A stretch of DNA of 64,000 nucleotides, from contig NTMA01000021.1 of assembly GCA_002917075.1 (NCBI GenBank), forward strand, positions 1 to 64,000. The letters are read 5' to 3'. The DNA comes from Hawksworthiomyces lignivorus (taxonomy: Eukaryota; Ascomycota; Sordariomycetes; Ophiostomatales; Ophiostomataceae). Numbering within the stretch: position 1 is the stretch's first letter; each line of letters starts with the position of its first letter. The translations under genes and the position numbers were made by a program. The notes beneath the pieces were generated by a model. It was not told where the DNA came from, ran no database searches, and saw nothing but the letters and a program-made list of their open reading frames with translations. Shown here piece after piece: positions 9,167 to 19,645 of this stretch.

Positions 9167-9817
9167 TCACCAAGGCTCTGTCGAGAAATGGAAGAACAAC
9201 ACCCGCCCCGACGAACAGCCGATCGCTACTGCCGCTCCCACAACAACCGACCGCGTAGGCCGATATTCTGATGGCAGCCATAACAATTTCTCTGAATACC
9301 AAGTGATCCAATGACCACCTGAACTGATGCCATATTCTCGGTAACAAGGTGGTAGAGGAGATCGAAGAAGAATGGTACCGGTATCGGTATGAAGACGAGA
9401 GTTCGTATCGAACGAGAAAGAATAAGCATCCCCTCTAGTTTTAATCGACTCTTGACGCTGGCCCGTCGCTACGTCCCAAAGCTTGATAACATCACGAGAT
9501 GCCAATGCGAGTAGTTCGCTGTTAGGCGAGAAAGCAACAATATTAACTAAGCCTCTATGACCATCGAGCTGTCGACACTGCCCTGTAATCACGTCCCAGA
9601 GCTTGATAGCGTCATGAGATGTTGATACGAGTAGCAAGCCGCTAGGCGAGAAGGTAACCGTATTAACAGAACCCCTATGGCTCTCGAGCGTCTGTCGACA
9701 CTGTCCTGTTGCTACGTCCCAAATTTTGACAGTGCTGTCGATAGAAGCCGATGCAAGCAACAAGCTATCAGGAGAGAAGGCGACAGCATTAACAGAACCT
9801 CGATGGCTCCTGAGCGT
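9167..9817 (-). pseudogene. Severed 3' end of the NACHT-WD40 NLR gene (WD repeats 12-14 and C-terminus)
   Basis: This stretch continues the NLR reading frame directly after the TAG at 9818-9820, with no further stop until TGA at 9167-9169. It encodes three more WD40 repeats ([47 protein letters not shown]). These are followed by the C-terminal block usual in HET-E/HNWD proteins: a [20 protein letters not shown] segment, then [16 protein letters not shown]. Because 217 codons stay open and keep the family sequence, the break looks recent. It is translated only if the stop is suppressed, or in an allele lacking it. Confidence 0.75.
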
Positions 9818-11210
9818 CTATCGATAGAGCCCTATCCCTACGTCCCAAAGTTGGACGGTACTGTCGACACAAGCCGATGCGAGTAACAAGCCATCAAACG
9901 AAAAGACGATAGTCTGAACAAGATTCCCATAATTCCCAAACGTTTGTCGACACTGTCCTGTCGTCACATCCCAAAGCTTGATATTTGTGTTCTTAGGAGC
10001 CGATACGAGTAGCGAGTTGTCAGGAGAGAAGGCGACAGCATTAACAGAACCTATATAACCCTCGAACGTATATCGACACTTCCCTGTCGCTACGTCCCAA
10101 AGCTTTATCGTCCTATCCATAGAAATCGTTACCAATAATAAGTTATCAGATGATAAGACAACATCAAGAACAACACTTTTATGGTCCTCAAGCGTCTGTC
10201 GACACTGTTCTGTCGTCACATCCCAAAGCTTGATAGTACCATCGGTAGAAGCCGATACGAGTAACAAGCCGTCAGGAGAGAAGATGGCAGTCTTAATAGA
10301 ACCCCTGTGTCCTTTGAGCGTTTGTTGACACCGTCCTGTCATCGTGTCCCAGAGTTTGATGGTGCTATCGAAACCAGCTGATATGAGTAATGAATTGTCA
10401 GACGAGGAGGTAACGACATTAACAGAAGCTCTATGACCCTCGAACGTTCGTCGACATTGTCCTGTCTTTACGTCCCAAAGTTTGATGGTCGTATCTCTAG
10501 AAGCCGACATGAGCAATGAATTGTCAGACGAGAAAGTAACGGCATTAATATAACCACTATGGCCCTTCAACGTATATCGGCACTGCTCAGTGACCATGTC
10601 CCAGAGCTTGACGGTCTCATCGTAAGAAGCCGATGCAAGTATCGAGCCGTCAAATGAAAAAGCAACAGTATTAATAGAATGTCTATGACCTTTTAATGTC
10701 TGTCGACACTGCAATGTCGTTACGTCCCAAAGCTTGATGGTGTTATCAAGAGAAGCCGATGCGAGCAATAAACTATCAAACGAGAAGATAGCAGTGTTAA
10801 CAGCATTTGTATGCCCCTTGAGGGTCTGTCGGCATTGTCCTGTCGCTACATCCCAAAACTTGATGGTCTCATCAATAGAAGCCGATGCGAGCAATAAATT
10901 ATCAAACGAGAAGATAGCAGTGTTAACAACATTTGTATGCCCCTCAAGGGTCTGTCGACATTGCCCTGTCGCTACGTCCCAAAGCTTGACGGTCTTATCT
11001 TCAGAAGCTGATGCGACTAATAAATTATCAAATGAGAAAACAACAGTATTAACAATACCTTTATGGCTCTTGAGCGTTTGCCGACATTGCCCTGTCGTCG
11101 TGTCCCAAAACTTGACCGTCATGTCTTCAGAACTCGATACGAGCAATGAACTGTCAGACGAGAAAGCAACAGTATTAATAGAACTGTCATGGCCTTCAAG
11201 CGTCTGTAAA
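9430..11210 (-). repeat. Tandem 126-bp WD40-coding repeats (14 copies)
   Basis: Fourteen head-to-tail units of about 126 bp, each coding one 42-residue WD40 blade. The consensus is LxGHxxxVNTVxFSxDxxLL followed by ASASxDxTIKLWDVxTGQCRQT. Units 13 and 14 are one or two codons shorter. Copies are related but clearly diverged, unlike the near-identical repeats of Podospora HNWD genes. Fourteen blades would make two seven-bladed propellers; only eleven lie before the stop. Confidence 0.85.
9818..9820 (-). other. Premature TAG in the NLR WD40 array
   Basis: The coding strand reads CGA TAG ACG where neighbouring repeats read CGA CAG ACG or similar (RQT). One C-to-T change at a CpA dinucleotide explains it. 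CpA to TpA is the change made by repeat-induced point mutation in ascomycetes, but one site cannot prove that cause. Confidence 0.85.
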
Positions 11211-13311
11211 CAAGGACTCCAATGGTCTTCCATAGTAGGCTTAGCTGTAATCCATTTAGGCTCCTCTTTATTGAACAAGCATTTTATTATGCTAGAAGCC
11301 GGAGCGAACACGAGTGCTGAAGCATAAACCTGGAGTGGGTAATTTTCCAAAACCCACTTGAAGGATATTAGAAAGCGGTATGCGTCTCTGACGAATTGTG
11401 ATAATCGAGCAACATTTGGCTTGTCCTAAACCACATTAGAGCGCATCTGAAATGATGTCGTTGACTCCTAAACTCACTTGGAGTAAATGCCGAAGTTTGG
11501 ATATTGAAAGCACTCCCTCTGACATACTGTTGAGAAGGCTTAAAGACTCGAGCCAGTATAAGTATTTATGTCTCAGAAACGTGTCTATTTTGCCATCATC
11601 TTGGATGCTATCGTTATAGTCAACAACTGTACAAGACCGCACAAGGTGTTCGATCCAATAAACACAAGAATACCGCGTTACTGCCAAAGGGTCTGCGGCC
11701 GGTGTTTTGACTTCTTCGATGGGAAATCCAGGGTGGTATAAGTTGTACATATCCCGCCGTAGTGTTCTAGTCATAACTTCGAGCGATCTCAAAAAGATAA
11801 CGCGGTGTTTCTCCTCGATCCCATGAGGAAACATCTCAGAAGATGCCTTCTCGAGCAAAAATTCTTTCGCCGACTGATGCACGAAGTAGATAGTGCTTTC
11901 TCGAAGCACCAGAAACGAGCCACACTCTTTTATAATCTCGGACAGATATCGGTCGCCACCAGGAATTTCTTCTAAGGACGTGAGTTCTTTCAATGTAATA
12001 GGTCGGAATACAGTTGACGCGATTGCAAGAATCCGATTACAAAGTTTAACATCCTCTGAGTTACGTATTTGCTCCATCATTCGTTCATAAAGAAGGTCGA
12101 GTTTAGGTGGAATCTCCGTTAATTTCACCTCTATGTTCCATGGCTTAATTGTCTCAAGAACTTCACAGACCAAAGCGACCCAGAGGAATGTGCCGTCTGC
12201 GTTTGAGGACAAGTAGTTTTGGATACTGTCTTTTGTTGTGTCATCGTAACGTTTTAAACCGGCCACTTTGTACTGGATAAATGCGTTGACTGCTGTAGAG
12301 ACGGAGTCCTCATCCTCAAGACACAGACATATTTTCTGTGCGGCAGCTTCTAGATGTCTTTCGATATCTAGCAAGTTACGGCTGGAGACGATCCATTTGA
12401 TGTGGGGAAATGCAGATGATTTTCGGATAATCAAATCGAGAAGTTGAGGTAGATCTTCCGCCACGCATTCGTCGAGCGCGTCGATGATCAAATAAGCACC
12501 CTTTAAGGCTGTGTCCCCCAGTATGTTGATAAATACCGTCTCTAAGGCGTACCAGGCGTTTCTTCCTTTAAAGAGCTGCTCGCCTGTGTCATCATATCTC
12601 TCCCATATGTGTGAGATGAGTGACGGCTGTTGTTTTATTAGTAAGTAGATGAGGCCGCGCAGCACGGCCGTGGCATTGTTGATGTACGAGTCGGTGGCCT
12701 GGCAGAAAAAGTAGGATAAAAGGGTGGGTCTGACGGCTGACCTCTCCTCAATTTCCTTCTTCTTCAGCTCCTCAATTTCATCCAGCTCGTTGATAATACC
12801 GCACAGCAGCATAGTCTTGCCCTTACCGGGGTCACCCTTGATCCAAAGCAGGCGGATATTCTCGTCGTTGCGCCATCGCTGGAAATCAGCGTTGTCCAGG
12901 ATCCAGTGGTACGAATCTTTTAACAGACCACCTTTGATCTGCTCGATACGGTTCTTATCAAGGCGGGGGTCTGTCACTTGGAGGTCTCTTAAACACCTGG
13001 CGTCTTTTTCATCGAAAGACGAATTAGTATATCATAATTGAAAAAAATTGCAATATCAAAAATTATTTAGAGTCGATTTTGAAGATAAATGTTGGGTCTT
13101 ATAATGAAACCTTATTATTTACCTTTCTCTTCTGGGCTACCGCCCCCAGCATAGTTGTTTACAGTTTGGTTGATAGGGCTATACAAGATGACAAGGTCGT
13201 TAATAACGATACGATACTGTAGCGCACTGCAAATAGAATATGCACTAACCCGTTATTGATGCCTTGTTGTGCGGTTGTTGAGTATACATTATCGTAATTT
13301 GTTGTTCCCAT
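9818..13311 (-). CDS. NACHT-WD40 NOD-like receptor with N-terminal amyloid-type motif, truncated by a nonsense codon
   Basis: Four exons: 13311-13250, 13178-13123, 13003-11478 and 11425-9818. They join in frame to 1,083 residues. The start ATG at 13311 gives an N, Q and G-rich 35-residue leader with AQQGINNGPI at residues 14-23, then SPEEKDARCLRDL leading into the NACHT. Walker A is GDPGKGKT (96-103) and Walker B LIIDALDE (211-218). From about residue 624 there are eleven 42-residue WD40 repeats. The intron at 11426-11477 (GTGAGT donor, CTAAT branch, TTTAG acceptor) restores the linker LSQFVRDAYRF that joins NACHT to WD in HET-E relatives. The intron at 13179-13249 uses a weaker GTTAGT donor. 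NLRs of this class sense a ligand through the repeats and trigger cell death through the N-terminal module. Here that module is a prion-type motif that should recruit the divergent HeLo gene product. The frame ends at a TAG that replaces the CAG of the CRQT signature in repeat 11. Confidence 0.82.
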
Positions 13312-14115
13312 CTTGACTTTATCTAGTCACACCGTTTTAAGTAACTGGATCGATATCCTGTTGACACTCGCGCAGCTGTCGTCTCTAATTGCGTTAACGA
13401 CGTTATGAATGTCGTATTTAAGAAAGCGCCCAGTTAATCTATGATCTCTCGCAGAAGAAGTGTTGCGTCTATGGCTTGACTCTTGTATTGTGTAGTGTTT
13501 GAAATTTGACCAAGCAAAGAGAGAAGAGTTTTGGAACCAAAAAACTGCGGCAGAGATTGGGCAAGAAACATAGAGAGTGGCTCGCCAAAAAAAAAAAACT
13601 ACGACGATTTCTAGTGTGAATTTTGTAGCCCAAATCAGCCACGCGTGCAGCTCTACCAATTAGAGTATATTTTGCTCATTTCATCTTCAGTAGGTGTCTA
13701 GGTTTGATTCAAGTGGCTGTGTTATTACTTTAATCATATATTACTGGCGAAGATGTACTGTCCAGGCGGTACCTTTGTATCTTGACCCGACACCATGTCG
13801 CACGGCGCGAAGTGTTTCCAACGTCGATCTGAGCGCTTGTCGTCAACTGGACATACGAATGACTGATGGCAATACGGAGTATAGCGGTATTTTTTCATTT
13901 GACTATGATTGACGGGATTTTATGTATCGCAATGCAAGAGCTATTGGAGCAAGGCTGTAACCTGCAGGATGCTTGATTAAACCCCGCCTACGAACCTTAA
14001 ATTGGGCATTACTTGGACACCTGGAAATCCAATCCCAGCCGTATTCTCATACCATTCTTAGGGTCATCTCTTTTTTTCCTCACGGTAAAACCCTTGTCAA
14101 CTTGAACACCTGACC
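13312..14115. promoter_or_regulatory. Divergent intergenic region between NLR and HeLo genes
   Basis: About 800 bp separate the start codons of the two divergently transcribed genes, so it must contain both promoters. This head-to-head arrangement is typical of fungal NLR/effector pairs and would allow co-regulation. The minus-strand open frame at 13327-13659 has no domain and I do not call it a gene. Confidence 0.6.
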
Positions 14116-14969
14116 ATGACCGACGGAGTCGGACTCGTCTTCCAGCTTGTTGGGCTCTTCAACACGGTTGTCGACGACTTTGCGTACATTCAGTTCGCAC
14201 GCAGCTTTGGCGCCGACTTCCAGGTGAACACGCTGCAGCTGAACAACGCGCAGTTGCGGCTCTCGCGCTGGGGGAAGTCTATCGGGCTCAGCGACATTGA
14301 CGACGAGACGCTGTCGCTACGTGGCACATTTATCTCTGAGGAGGACATCGGGCCCGCTCAGGAGCTGTTAAGCGGCATCCTGGCCGAGCTGCAGCGCGCC
14401 AAGGACAAGTCGGCCGAGTACGTCAGGAACAAGAAGCTCGACGACAAATCTCTCAGAATTTACAACGAAGAAAAAGACCTAGAATACTCGGACCTGTCTC
14501 TCCTCCAGGTCGGGCGACGGCTGGTGCAGAGGAGGAAGAATAGCATGCCCAGGTCGAAAAGGGCCAAGTGGGCACTGTACGACCGAGGACATTTTCAGGA
14601 GATGCTCGATAACGTGACGCGGCTGACGGGTGAGCTGGTTGAGCTCTTCCCGGCCGCCAAGGACAAGCAGAAGCAGCTGCGCGACGAGGAGGTAGCTGCA
14701 TTTACTGGCTCTCTGCGACAGCTGCAGGCTGCGATCGCCAAGCAGGATAACATGTTGGCCGAGGTGCTCAGTCAGTTGTTAATCGATGCGGTAAATTATT
14801 ATCCCCCACCCCCTTTTTTTAACAATTGTTAGATTGATTTGATTAGAGATATAAGAAAAATAACATTTATTTCATATAGAAGAGGCCGGCTGAAGAATAT
14901 AATTTCAATACACACAACTCGAAAATTGGGCAACAGGGGAGGAACGACGGAACCATCACAATGAATTAA
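14116..14969 (+). CDS. HeLo-domain cell-death effector with C-terminal amyloid-type motif (HET-S-like)
   Basis: Residues 1-225 (exon 1, 14116-14790) match the HeLo domain of Podospora HET-S. Landmarks are the hydrophobic N-terminal segment GVGLVFQLVGLFNTVVDDFAYIQF, LRLSRWGKSIGL, and the RAKWALYDRGHFQEMLDNV block. Without splicing the frame would run into a low-complexity end (YYPPPPFFNNC). Removing an intron at 14791-14879 (GTAAAT donor, CATATAG acceptor) adds 29 residues in phase 0 and stops at TAA 14967-14969, giving 254 residues. The tail carries GQQGRNDGTI at residues 242-251, close to the NLR motif AQQGINNGPI. In HET-S the HeLo domain becomes a membrane-disrupting toxin when the C-terminal prion region is templated by the NLR; I infer the same here. 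Other acceptors exist in this AT-rich stretch, so the tail needs RNA support. Confidence 0.78.
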
Positions 14970-15692: not shown

Positions 15693-18600
15693 ATGCCAGT
15701 GAACCGAATCGGCTTTACGGAGCTCTCTGGCAGTCACGGCGATACGGGCGCTAGGGACGGGCAGTACCGAGTCAAGTATGTAATTAAGCTCTGATGCGGG
15801 GGTAGCCGTGACTAACGCGAAGCAGCATCGTCTTTGTACACGGCTTGCGCGGACATCCTCAGCACACGTGGGAAGGCAACCGTGCCGGAACTAGCGAGGA
15901 GAGGGGCAGCGTGGACAGAGGCAATAGGAACACGGGAGCGGCGACGCCAAGCAAGCGAAACGTCTTTCGGGGAATCTTCAAGTCCAGACCATCGTCCCCA
16001 GCTTCTGCTCCGGCCTCAGCTTCAGCGCCAACGTCGAGCAACGAGACGAGCGAAGAGAGCCCAGACAAGGTATTCTGGCCTGCCGAGTATCTCACGCAAG
16101 ACATTCCCGAGGCAAGAGTGTGGACATATGGCTACAACGCGGACGTGATCGGCGGGCTGTTCCAGGCGCACAGCAAGAACAGTATATCGCAACATGGTCG
16201 AGACCTCGCTGTCCGCGTCGACCGAGAAATACAAAATCAGGCAAGCGCTACGCTTCGGCAAGCACGGCTGGAGAACTCTCGCTAATAACCGCAGGATCCA
16301 ATCTTATTCGTGGCGCACAGCCTCGGCGGCATTATCGTCAAAGACGTACGTCTCGGTAGTGCAACTTGCTCCATACCACGGCCACTACTGACGCTGAGTT
16401 GCAGGCAATATGTCGATCGAATGCGTGTCGTGCGCGAGCGAGGCTGATTGTCTTCCTCGGCACGCCACATCGGGGGAGTGCGACTGCGGGATGGGGCGAG
16501 ATCGCGTCCAATCTAGCACTTTTGACAATGCAAGACTCGAATAAGAAGATCCTCAGTTCGCTAGAGGTGAACAGTGAGATCTTGGATAGAATCCATGAAG
16601 ATTTCAAGAATAAAGCAGACGAATCTCGTATCAAGATACACTCCTTCCAAGAGTCGCGGGCAATGACGGGCATGAAAGGTTTACACAATAAGGCAAGCTG
16701 CTCGAATATCTCTATTGCATCTTCTAGTACTAACTGCGAATTGCGGTAGGTGGTAGACGATTTCTCTTCAAAGCTCGATCTGCCGCAGTCTCTCGAGACT
16801 GTCGAGAGCATCGACGCGAACCACAGGCAGATGGTCAGATGTAGCAGCAGGACCGATCCACAATACAAGGCTATCTACAGTATTCTTCAGCAGTTCATCC
16901 AACATTCCCTACGCGATGAAAATAGAGTCGGGCCACAAGAATCAGCGTCGACGGCATCTTTACCAGAGGCCGGTGGAGCAGGTTTAGAGGGCGGCTTCCA
17001 AGGAGCCGCGACGAGTTAGTGTAGGAGAGCTCTACTTGAAACGACTGGTAGCTGCTAACGCTGCTGTAGACGCTGCTGCATCGCCTTGCTACTATATTCC
17101 GTTTCGCGAGAACCAACGCTTTGTTGGCCGGAACAGTACGTTGGACACCCTTGAGCAGATGTTGTTTCTGAACAAGGAGGCACAAAGGGCCGCCGTCGTC
17201 GGCTTGGGTGGGATCGGAAAGACCCAAGTCGCCGTCCGCTTTGCGTACCGGGTCAAAGAACAACATCCCGAGTATTCCGTCTTCTGGGTGCCGGCACTTA
17301 GCATGGGAACTTTCGAACAAGCCTATAGCAAACTAGCCAAGGAGCTCCCTCTACGGCAATCCGGCAAGGATGACGACCCCAAAGAATCTGTACGGCGATT
17401 CCTGGACTCGGATGCGGCGGGGCCATGGCTTCTCATAGTGGACAACGCAGACGACAAAGATGTTCTCTTTGGATCAGCAGATGCGTCGGAAGGTATTTGG
17501 GAGTACCTTCCCGAAAATGGCCTGACGCTATTCACGACCCGGTCCTTAGACATCGCAACGTCGGTTGCCGGGAGCGAGGTGGTCGAACTGCACGAAATGG
17601 ATCCGCCAGAGGCGGCTGAATTTCTGGAAAAATCGCTGATCCAGAAAGACGTGCTTCGCGACGAATCGGTGGCGGCAGAGTTGTTGAAAGAGCTTACTTA
17701 TCTCCCGCTTGCGATAGCACAAGCTGCAGCCTACATCAATCGAACGAAGCTGCCCCTTGCTCAGTACCTCAACCTGCTGCGCGGCACCGAACCAAACATC
17801 ATCAGCCTGATGAGCCGAGAGTTCCGCGACGACACGCGGTACAGGGAGACACGGCATCCTGTAGCGACAACGTGGCTTGTGTCGTTTGACCAGATTTTCA
17901 AGTCTGACAGCGCCGCGGCCGATCTGCTAGAGTTCATATCGTGCATCGAGCCGAAAGGCATCCCGCAGTCAATGCTACCTTTATTCGAGATAGAGGAAGA
18001 AACAGAGCACGCAATTGGGACGCTGTGCGAATATGCCTTCCTAACCAGACGCAGGGATGGCAAAACGTTCGACATGCACAGCTTGGTACACCTGGCGACC
18101 CGTCTCTGGGTTCAGAGAAACGGCCGTACGGTGAGGGTGACTGAAAAGGTGACCCGATATCTCGGATCCGTTTTCCCAAACGACGACCACGCCAACCGCC
18201 AGCTGTGGAGAGAGTATCTTCCGCATGCCTTCCGGGTTCTACAGAGCAGCGAAGAGCTGGACCCTGGAAAGAAAGTCGACCTGTGCTACTTCGTCGGAAA
18301 GTGTTTAATGAGCGACGGCAGGACTAGGGAATCTGTCAAATACTTGACCATGGTTTGCGATTGGGAGGCTTGCCGTGTCCCCGAAGACCACCCCGATCGG
18401 CTTGAGTCGCAGTATACGCTCGCTGTAGCCTATTTTGCCGACGGCCAGATCAAGAAGGCCATCGCGCTGCTCGAACAAATCGTCGCTATTCGTAAGAAAA
18501 CTCTCGCTGAAGATGACAGCGATCGACTTACATCGGAAAATATGCTCGGCGCCGCCTACCATGCCGATGAACAAATTCAAGAGTCCATCCCGATACTCGA

Positions 18601-19645
18601 GTCCGTCCTCGCTATTCGGAAGAGAATTCTCGCCGAAGACGACCGCGATCTACTTACGTCGCAACATACGCTTGCTAGAGCCTACCGGTCCAACCGCCAG
18701 GTTGCAGAGGCCATCGCGCTGCTCGAATACATTGCCGTTATTGAGAAAGAGATTCTCGTGGAAGACCACCCTGATCGGCTTGCAACGCAGCTTGAGCTAG
18801 CTAGAGCTTACGAGAGCGACGGCCAGAGCAAGAAGGCTATCGCGCTGCTCGAAAATATCGTTGCTCTTGAAAAGAAAACGTTTGCCGAATATCACCCCGA
18901 TACGCTTGCGTCGCAGTTTTCGCTTGCTAGAGCCTATCGATCCAACGGCCAGATCACAGAAGCCATCGCGCTGCTCGAATACAATTCCTCTATTGAAAAT
19001 GAGACTCTCGTGGAAGACCACCCTGATCGGCTCGCAACGCAGCTTGAGCTAGCTAGAGCTTATCGATCCAATAATCAAATCGAGAAAACTGTCGCGCTGC
19101 TCGAACACGTCGTCGCCATTGAAAAGCAGACTCTCGCCGAAGAAAACCCTGCCCTACTGTTGTCGCAGCATGAGCTTGCTCGAGCTTATCGGTCCAGTGG
19201 TCAAGTCAAAGAGGCTATAGCACTTTTCGAGCACATCGTCGCCGTTGACGAGAAGACGCTCACAAATGACAGTCATAATCGGTCTACATCGCAGCACGAA
19301 CTTGCCAGGGCCTATCAAGCCAATGGCCAAGTCCGGGAGGCCGTCACGCTGCTCGAAGACGTCGTCGCCTCTCAAAAGCAGACGCTCGGCGAAGACCACC
19401 CCGAGCTACTTATCTCGCAGCATATGCTTGCTAGCGTCTATCGAGCCAATGGCCAAATCAAAGAAGCGATTGCTTTGCTCGAATGCATCGTCGCTATCGA
19501 TGAGAAAACTCTGCCTGAAGACGACCCTGAAAGAATTTTCTCGGAGCGAGCACTTGCCGAAGCCATCGCATCCCAAACCGACGGCGAGGAGGACGTATAT
19601 TTCACAGCCAATATAGTCAAAGACACGTGTGACGAGAGTTGTTAG
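15693..19645 (+). CDS. Lipase/esterase (SesB-like)-NB-ARC-TPR NOD-like receptor
   Basis: Six exons: 15693-15775, 15826-16240, 16295-16345, 16405-16692, 16750-17014 and 17070-19645. They give 1,225 residues. The N-terminal alpha/beta hydrolase has the oxyanion region FVHGLRGHPQHTW and the nucleophile elbow AHSLGG (Ser175), then FLGTPHRGS. The NB-ARC ATPase follows with P-loop GLGGIGKT (412-419), LLIVDNADD, and FTTRS. The C-terminal part (about 811-1190) holds nine 42-residue TPR units of the kinesin light chain type (consensus ARAYRSNGQIKEAIALLE). The introns at 16241-16294 and 16693-16749 start with GC (contexts CAG|GCAAGC and AAG|GCAAGC); no GT nearby restores the family sequence, whereas the GC sites do. 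This architecture is a known fungal NLR class in which the hydrolase is the fused effector. Ligand and lipid substrate are unknown. Confidence 0.88.
18400..19540 (+). repeat. Tandem 126-bp TPR-coding repeats (9 copies)
   Basis: Nine units, each coding 42 residues. Each starts with LxSQHxLARAYRSNGQ and ends with IVAIEKKTLAEDHPDR or a variant. The degree of divergence between copies is moderate, with some units sharing long identical blocks (LVEDHPDRLATQLELARAY occurs twice). Confidence 0.85.

Follow-up and report, generated by a model that had tools for sequence, protein, structure and literature searches.

Do the divergent NOD-like receptor (NLR) gene and HeLo gene of Hawksworthiomyces lignivorus contig NTMA01000021.1 form an amyloid-signalling pair, and from which family of amyloid motifs does the short sequence common to their products derive? 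The window analysed here is the stretch of 64,000 nucleotides at positions 1 to 64,000 of that contig. It holds a NACHT-WD40 NLR gene (minus strand, start at 13311) and a HeLo gene (plus strand, start at 14116) that point away from each other with about 800 bases between them, and related versions of one motif, to which we give the name AQQG, are found at the N-terminus of the NLR and the C-terminus of the HeLo protein. We consider the locus to be a two-gene amyloid-signalling cell-death module with AQQG as its tag, at a probability of roughly 0.72, and AQQG itself to be most likely an offshoot of the pseudo-palindromic (PP) motif family. Genome-wide searches covered the 43.7-Mb genome in its 191 contigs; C-numbers denote contigs of this genome and P-numbers denote protein relatives. 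The two genes are built as follows, all introns being predictions:

13250 to 13311, minus strand: NLR exon 1, encoding MGTTNYDNVYSTTAQQGINNG; the first half of the motif lies at 13272-13250, and the exon and the place of its donor are matched in the C181 and C174 paralogues.
13123 to 13178, minus strand: NLR exon 2, encoding PINQTVNNYAGGGSPEEK; the second half of the motif lies at 13177-13154, and the exon is conserved in C181 and C174 and compatible with P. lilacinum at 9 of 9 positions.
11478 to 13003, minus strand: NLR exon 3, a linker and the NACHT region (NPHP3_N, PF24883; also a match to NACHT, PF05729).
9818 to 11425, minus strand: NLR exon 4, WD40 repeats, ending at an in-frame TAG at 9820-9818.
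9167 to 9817, minus strand: the WD40 frame beyond this TAG, open again, with a C-terminal end (...FHFSTEPW) like those of the two paralogues on C181 and C174.
14116 to 14790, plus strand: HeLo exon 1, the HeLo domain (PF14479, E 3.6e-34; HET-s HeLo structure 2wvn, E 3.1e-20).
14880 to 14969, plus strand: HeLo exon 2, encoding KRPAEEYNFNTHNSKIGQQGRNDGTITMN and a stop; GQQGRNDGTI lies at 14928-14957, and the tail exon is joined in P0006.

The spliced NLR N-terminus encodes MGTTNYDNVYSTTAQQGINNGPINQTVNNYAGGG..., in which AQQGINNGPI occupies residues 14-23, and the HeLo protein, 254 residues long in a fully open frame, carries GQQGRNDGTI at residues 242-251. The initial annotation had given these peptides and coordinates correctly, and its count of six identical positions in ten was reproduced. 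Two very small predicted exons, of 62 and 56 bases, carry NLR residues 1-39, and the motif is interrupted by intron 1 after AQQGINNG; the acceptor of intron 2 (AAAAAG) is weak. The four-exon layout can also be modelled in two NLR paralogues, on C174 and C181, and splicing at the place that matches the window tail exon is annotated in the HeLo relative P0006. A NACHT region and 11 WD40 stretches are encoded in the 1083 residues that precede the TAG at 9820-9818, a stop that the initial annotation did not mention. The HeLo domain scores 118.8 bits against a cut-off of 23.2 for PF14479, and in the AlphaFold model of P0006 (mean predicted local distance difference test score, pLDDT, 79.1; predicted template-modelling score 0.76) the tail (residues 226-256) lies outside the confident HeLo fold, with pLDDT below 50.

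Across the proteins compared, the motif reads (A/G)-Q-Q-G-x-N-x-G-x-(I/V)-x-Q-(T/N)-V-x-N and is present as one copy per protein, the window effector retaining the first half only. Four HeLo relatives keep the tail exon: the C112 paralogue ends in SETYNFEMSGGQVAQQGKNMGRIQQTVNNNK, P0003 in ...GGQVAQQGKNTGQIHQTVHNR and P0006 (Cladorrhinum) in ...GGQVAQAGRNVGHVQQTVNNHR, and P0007 (Purpureocillium) contains ...AGQVAQQGKNMGQVHQT.... The window NLR motif, AQQGINNGPINQTVNN, is identical to the tails of C112, P0003 and P0006 at 12, 11 and 10 of 16 residues, respectively, values that none of 4000 shuffles reached in any of the three comparisons (the P0007 tail was left out of this test). In the reverse direction, the window HeLo tail agrees with the C181 NLR at 8 and with the C174 NLR at 7 of 12 residues, which none of 2000 shuffles reached in either case, and is closer to both of them than to its own neighbour. 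These 16- and 12-residue matches place the similarity far beyond chance, although the window pair taken alone is barely so.

Recurrence of the motif within the genome points in the same direction. A degenerate DNA pattern for A-Q-Q-G-x-N-x-G had four matches in the whole genome and none when reversed as a control; these were the window NLR, the C112 HeLo tail, and the first exons of the NLRs on C174 and C181, the window HeLo tail (GQQG) not being among them. On exons 1/2 the C174 and C181 NLRs encode MGTTYYDNTHSATAQQGHNSG/TVIQNVYNH and MGITNYDNIHSTTAQQGPNSG/TIIQNVNNY, and their frames are open to 1174 and 1172 residues, respectively. The C112 HeLo paralogue is 64% identical and lies divergent to a WD40 fragment that resembles the repeats of the window NLR and is presumably the remnant of an NLR. 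A HeLo relic of the AQQG lineage was also seen near a WD40 array at C113:119375-119553 (L007/L023). Beyond this genome, a protein-database search with NLR residues 1-90 returned two NLRs, neither of which carries the motif, and a regular expression run over 122 NLRs (120 listed of 5090 profile matches, together with these two) identified PP-type N-termini in three and no additional AQQG motif.

A comparable arrangement can be inferred in Purpureocillium lilacinum. There, PCL_00451 (P0007, the HeLo protein, with tail AQQGKNMGQVHQT) and PCL_00450 (P0128, an NLR) have locus tags that follow one another, and a 10,410-bp contig is listed for both. The NLR as annotated is without the motif. Shifting the frame over residues 66-87 and 95-104 makes the protein compatible with the three H. 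lignivorus NLRs at 19 of 21 positions of exon 1 and 9 of 9 positions of exon 2; among 242 control readings (121 other NLRs in two frames), the best values were 13 for exon 1 and 7 for exon 2. One of the exon 1 mismatches concerns QQG, whose first glutamine is replaced by H or Y. Judged from the protein records, not from DNA, the deposited NLR appears to read the motif out of frame, and the two genes probably form a matching AQQG pair. In these NLRs the tag is distributed over two very small exons with an intron in between, and in the deposited P. lilacinum NLR these appear to be misframed; surveys of predicted N-termini can therefore miss tags of this kind.

The window thus has the arrangement of an NLR/effector pair, namely adjoining genes with a motif common to the NLR N-terminus and the effector C-terminus, marginal for the window pair alone and with a compatible pair in P. 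lilacinum. A two-gene amyloid-signalling system had been proposed in the initial annotation; the divergent pair with its shared terminal motif and the recurrence of that motif on NLR N-termini and a HeLo tail in the genome bear out the genetic part of the proposal, the P. lilacinum pair adds to it by inference, and the signalling part stands by analogy. In the NWD2/HET-S and PNT1/HELLP model, as set out in passages of PMC5485727 and PMC7885112, NLR oligomers cluster their N-terminal tags into an amyloid that templates the effector tail. As the NLR and the HeLo protein of the window, an effector of the pore-forming type, carry the same tag, the receptor probably activates the effector through transmission of an amyloid fold, and amyloid formation, templating and cell death may be expected to proceed here after the same model. 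A ligand sensed by the WD40 repeats would lead the NACHT domain to oligomerise, the clustered NLR N-termini would nucleate a beta-arch amyloid, this amyloid would template the HeLo tail, and the HeLo domain would thereby be freed to refold and attack the membrane. The likeness to the NWD2/HET-S system of Podospora extends to an adjoining NACHT-WD40 NLR and HeLo effector with a common terminal motif and to a homologous HeLo domain (E 3.1e-20). HET-S, however, has two 21-residue repeats, whereas the window effector has a single motif copy that follows another sequence pattern and has no match to the HET-s-related amyloid motif (HRAM).

Two other explanations bear on whether the pair signals at all. 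The shared peptides could be low-complexity linkers, rich in N, Q, G and T, on unrelated genes that take no part in amyloid signalling. Both peptides do have this composition, and the window pair alone is only marginally above it, its best ungapped 10-mer score being equalled in 72 and its identity count in 69 of 4000 double shuffles; but we regard the explanation as improbable, given that no shuffle in 4000 reached the 16-residue matches between the window NLR and the HeLo tails of relatives, that each of the four genome-wide pattern matches is located at an NLR N-terminus or in a HeLo tail, and that P. lilacinum has a compatible layout. Besides the marginal window score, several observations weigh against a signalling module. 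The tail is not visible in six (P0001, P0002, P0004, P0005, P0008 and P0009) of the nine closest HeLo relatives, in five cases apparently because gene prediction runs into the intron, and P0049 retains ...GVQVAQQ and then diverges. The 8-11 kb examined to either side of the C174 and C181 NLRs yielded no HeLo gene; on C112, an in-frame TAG interrupts the effector, and the neighbourhood of the WD40 fragment yielded no NACHT part. In the window itself, the in-frame TAG lies within the WD40 array of the NLR, and the HeLo tail is without the QTVNN half. Lastly, the tail DNA after the QQGxN core fits the C112 paralogue best at a 4-base shift, with 14 of 18 matches (7 in 20000 shuffles) compared with 9 of 24 when read in frame, which suggests that the later G and I matches of the 10-mer reported in the initial annotation may be partly accidental.

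Some of these points also favour the other explanation, in which an ancestral pair is decaying, the NLR having been truncated and the effector tail worn down, so that no signalling takes place today and AQQG receptors with open frames are those on C174 and C181. To this we assign somewhat less than even odds, and it is compatible with the module in that it concerns the state of the window copy. The C174 and C181 paralogues are open to the matching C-terminus, where the window NLR has its TAG; the part of the window tail exon that follows the core is 15 bases shorter than its counterpart in the C112 paralogue, with a possible frameshift; the C112 HeLo gene also contains a TAG, and its neighbour is no more than a WD40 fragment; and a further HeLo relic lies on C113. 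Against decay, the HeLo frame is open over all 254 residues, the NACHT region and 11 WD40 stretches are still encoded ahead of the TAG in the NLR, and GQQGRN is retained in a tail whose in-frame reading shares 8 of 12 residues with the C181 NLR. The last residues of the tail are possibly of frameshift origin: the DNA comparison speaks in favour, and the in-frame protein match to C181, which also reproduces N-x-G-T-I of that NLR, speaks against. Two-letter indices of repeat-induced point mutation are borderline only in the window.

The second question concerns the family of the motif. The hallmark of PP motifs, as given in parts of PMC7885112 and PMC9815663, is a central G-phi-Q-phi-G core that is pseudo-palindromic around Q. 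None of the seven aligned AQQG peptides has G at Q-2 or hydrophobic residues on both sides of Q, and the NxG left arm is absent; the right-hand QxGxNxG is present in all seven. The relatives nonetheless lead towards PP. HeLo relatives at 33-39% identity carry Ses_B (PP-like) tails at the same place, such as FSGSGNTGLQLGHNSGTMSGFTFG, the named ones among them being mostly Dothideomycetes. In the Penicillium PP-type NLRs P0130, P0172 and P0175, Q15, G17, N19, G21 and isoleucine 23 follow the numbering of the window NLR, and P0059, with a core of LQQGVNYG and a Ses_B score of 31.4 bits that passes the cut-off, looks intermediate. The most likely origin of AQQG is therefore a branch of the PP (Ses_B, RHIM-like) family in which the QxGxNxG-x-hydrophobic right half was kept and the G-phi-Q-phi-G core was replaced.

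Profile searches temper this placement. A Pfam search of the motif peptides gave no Ses_B (PF17046) match at E up to 10, a threshold at which the HMMER filters still discard most weak matches. We also built a PP profile of our own from 43 Ses_B-type tails of relatives P0010-P0058 (49 proteins; tails off the pattern Q.[GA].[NSD].G were omitted). It scored the C174 NLR above all 2857 shuffles, and the C181 NLR and the window tail at levels equalled by 23 and 103 of 2857, respectively, which is suggestive only. The window NLR was not recognised (1141 of 2858 shuffles as good), nor were the tails of C112, P0003 and P0006 (618, 785 and 515 of 2857). As the defining core is absent and only one of the seven peptides is clearly recognised, we class AQQG as derived from PP and not as a member of it.

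How far AQQG differs from PP is partly a matter of degree. Much is common to this pair and the PP systems (PNT1/HELLP in Podospora, HELLP/SBP/PNT1 in Chaetomium; Ses_B, PF17046; RHIM-like): a single short N/Q/G-rich motif, its position on the NLR N-terminus and effector C-terminus of neighbouring genes, the QxGxNxG right half, and the residue numbering of the three Penicillium NLRs. The differences lie in the core, T/V/I-A/G-Q-(Q/A)-G in place of G-phi-Q-phi-G; in the effector, which is HeLo here and not HELL, yet Ses_B tails are common on the HeLo relatives found; in the NLR, NACHT-WD40 here and NB-ARC-TPR in PNT1; and in an NLR motif that is split by an intron and has no Ses_B match. One could accordingly read the window as an ordinary PP-motif pair whose motifs are divergent and behave normally, which departs from our reading in degree only. 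The common QxGxNxG spacing and position, the resemblance of QQGHNSGTV in the C174 NLR to LQIGHNSGTM of PP, and the intermediate core of P0059 would all fit; we nevertheless consider this rather unlikely, as the G-phi-Q-phi-G core is missing from seven of seven peptides, no Ses_B match was obtained, four of the seven are indistinguishable from shuffles by the PP profile, and tags nearer the canonical core, albeit below the Ses_B cut-off, coexist on C9 and C163. A sigma or HRAM system is far less probable still. Sigma does occur on NACHT NLR N-termini and HRAMs do occur with HeLo effectors according to portions of PMC9815663 and PMC5485727, but sigma is described in the latter as about 40 residues with threefold submotifs, whereas the tail exon here encodes 29 residues that are repeat-free by inspection, and Pfam assigned neither domain to the HeLo protein at E up to 1 or to the N-terminal peptides at E up to 10.

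The initial annotation had offered that the motif was not an HRAM and might be sigma-like or a new variant joined to a HeLo effector. Its first point holds, since the window HeLo protein has a single short motif and no PF11558 match, whereas PF11558 does detect the HeLo gene on C117, which served as a positive control; the sigma-like option is not favoured by a short, unrepeated tail and by relatives that point to PP; and the new variant takes the form of a divergent PP offshoot. PUASM (FxGxGxQxxGxGxF with a PNP_UDP effector, as given in part of PMC9815663) was considered and set aside: the effector here is HeLo, and the pattern is absent from the peptides by inspection. The text consulted in PMC9815663, PMC5485727, PMC4518210, PMC7885112 and PMC12261475 contains no description of AQQG; the motif may already be present, without a name, in motif logos or supplementary profiles that have been published.

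Other amyloid-type tags occur in the same genome. A PP-like pair lies at C9:52133-53351 (L038/L039), where a PigL_N-type (HeLo-like) effector with the tail ...GSQVGMNSGTITNTFNN is divergent to a WD40 NLR. Its layout is that of the window pair, and its effector reads SQVGMNSGTIT where the window tail reads GQQGRNDGTIT; it differs in that the effector keeps G-S-Q-V-G and has a PigL_N and not a HeLo domain, and in that a TAG occupies the place of the central glutamine in the PP core of the NLR. The C9 effector frame holds stops or introns. At C163:111298-111351 (L037), an NLR N-terminus, NB-ARC-like by eye, has the PP-like tag GFEVGNNFGSI, in which the central glutamine has become glutamate; at 23.0 bits it falls just under the Ses_B cut-off of 23.2, and the C9 tag is also below it. 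The third type is an HRAM: C117:25504-26298 (L003/L040) is a HET-S-like HeLo gene with an HRAM tail (HET-s_218-289, PF11558, positions 4-65, E 1.4e-16), and no match to the window NLR was found in the 7-11 kb examined on each side of it. AQQG, the PP-like tags of C9 and C163, and the HRAM of C117 together make three motif types in one genome. A short HeLo piece that runs into an HRAM repeat, seen at C107:412493-412708 (L006), is a relic.

A bolder possibility, which we put forward tentatively and think rather unlikely, is that AQQG constitutes an amyloid channel of its own, which arose from the PP/RHIM lineage when a polar Q-Q took the place of the hydrophobic G-phi-Q-phi-G core. Such a channel would have no cross-talk with the PP-like and HRAM channels of this genome and would form a network in place of a single pair. 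The network aspect is suggested by the window effector, which is nearer to the C181 and C174 NLRs than to its own neighbour, and by the C112 tail, which resembles the window NLR over 16 residues. If AQQG does signal as proposed for the module, a RHIM/PP-type signal could lose its core signature and yet serve as a matched tag of receptor and effector, which would bear on the purpose of the core residues and on how parallel amyloid channels are insulated from one another.

The surroundings of the pair hold one more gene of the same general kind. Directly downstream of the HeLo gene, at 15700-19645 of the window on the plus strand, lies an NLR with NB-ARC and TPR repeats, and the locus may on that account be a three-gene NLR/effector cluster. 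Ahead of this NLR, the stretch FVHGLRGHPQHTW... looks by eye like an alpha/beta-hydrolase of the SesB type; Pfam lists none for the single open reading frame tested. Among the HeLo relatives, P0054, P0060, P0061, P0063 and P0064 have another recurring tail, NQV-(N/T)-G-x-QNI..., for example HIRNQVTGTQNISGGMTFN, which is possibly another tag.

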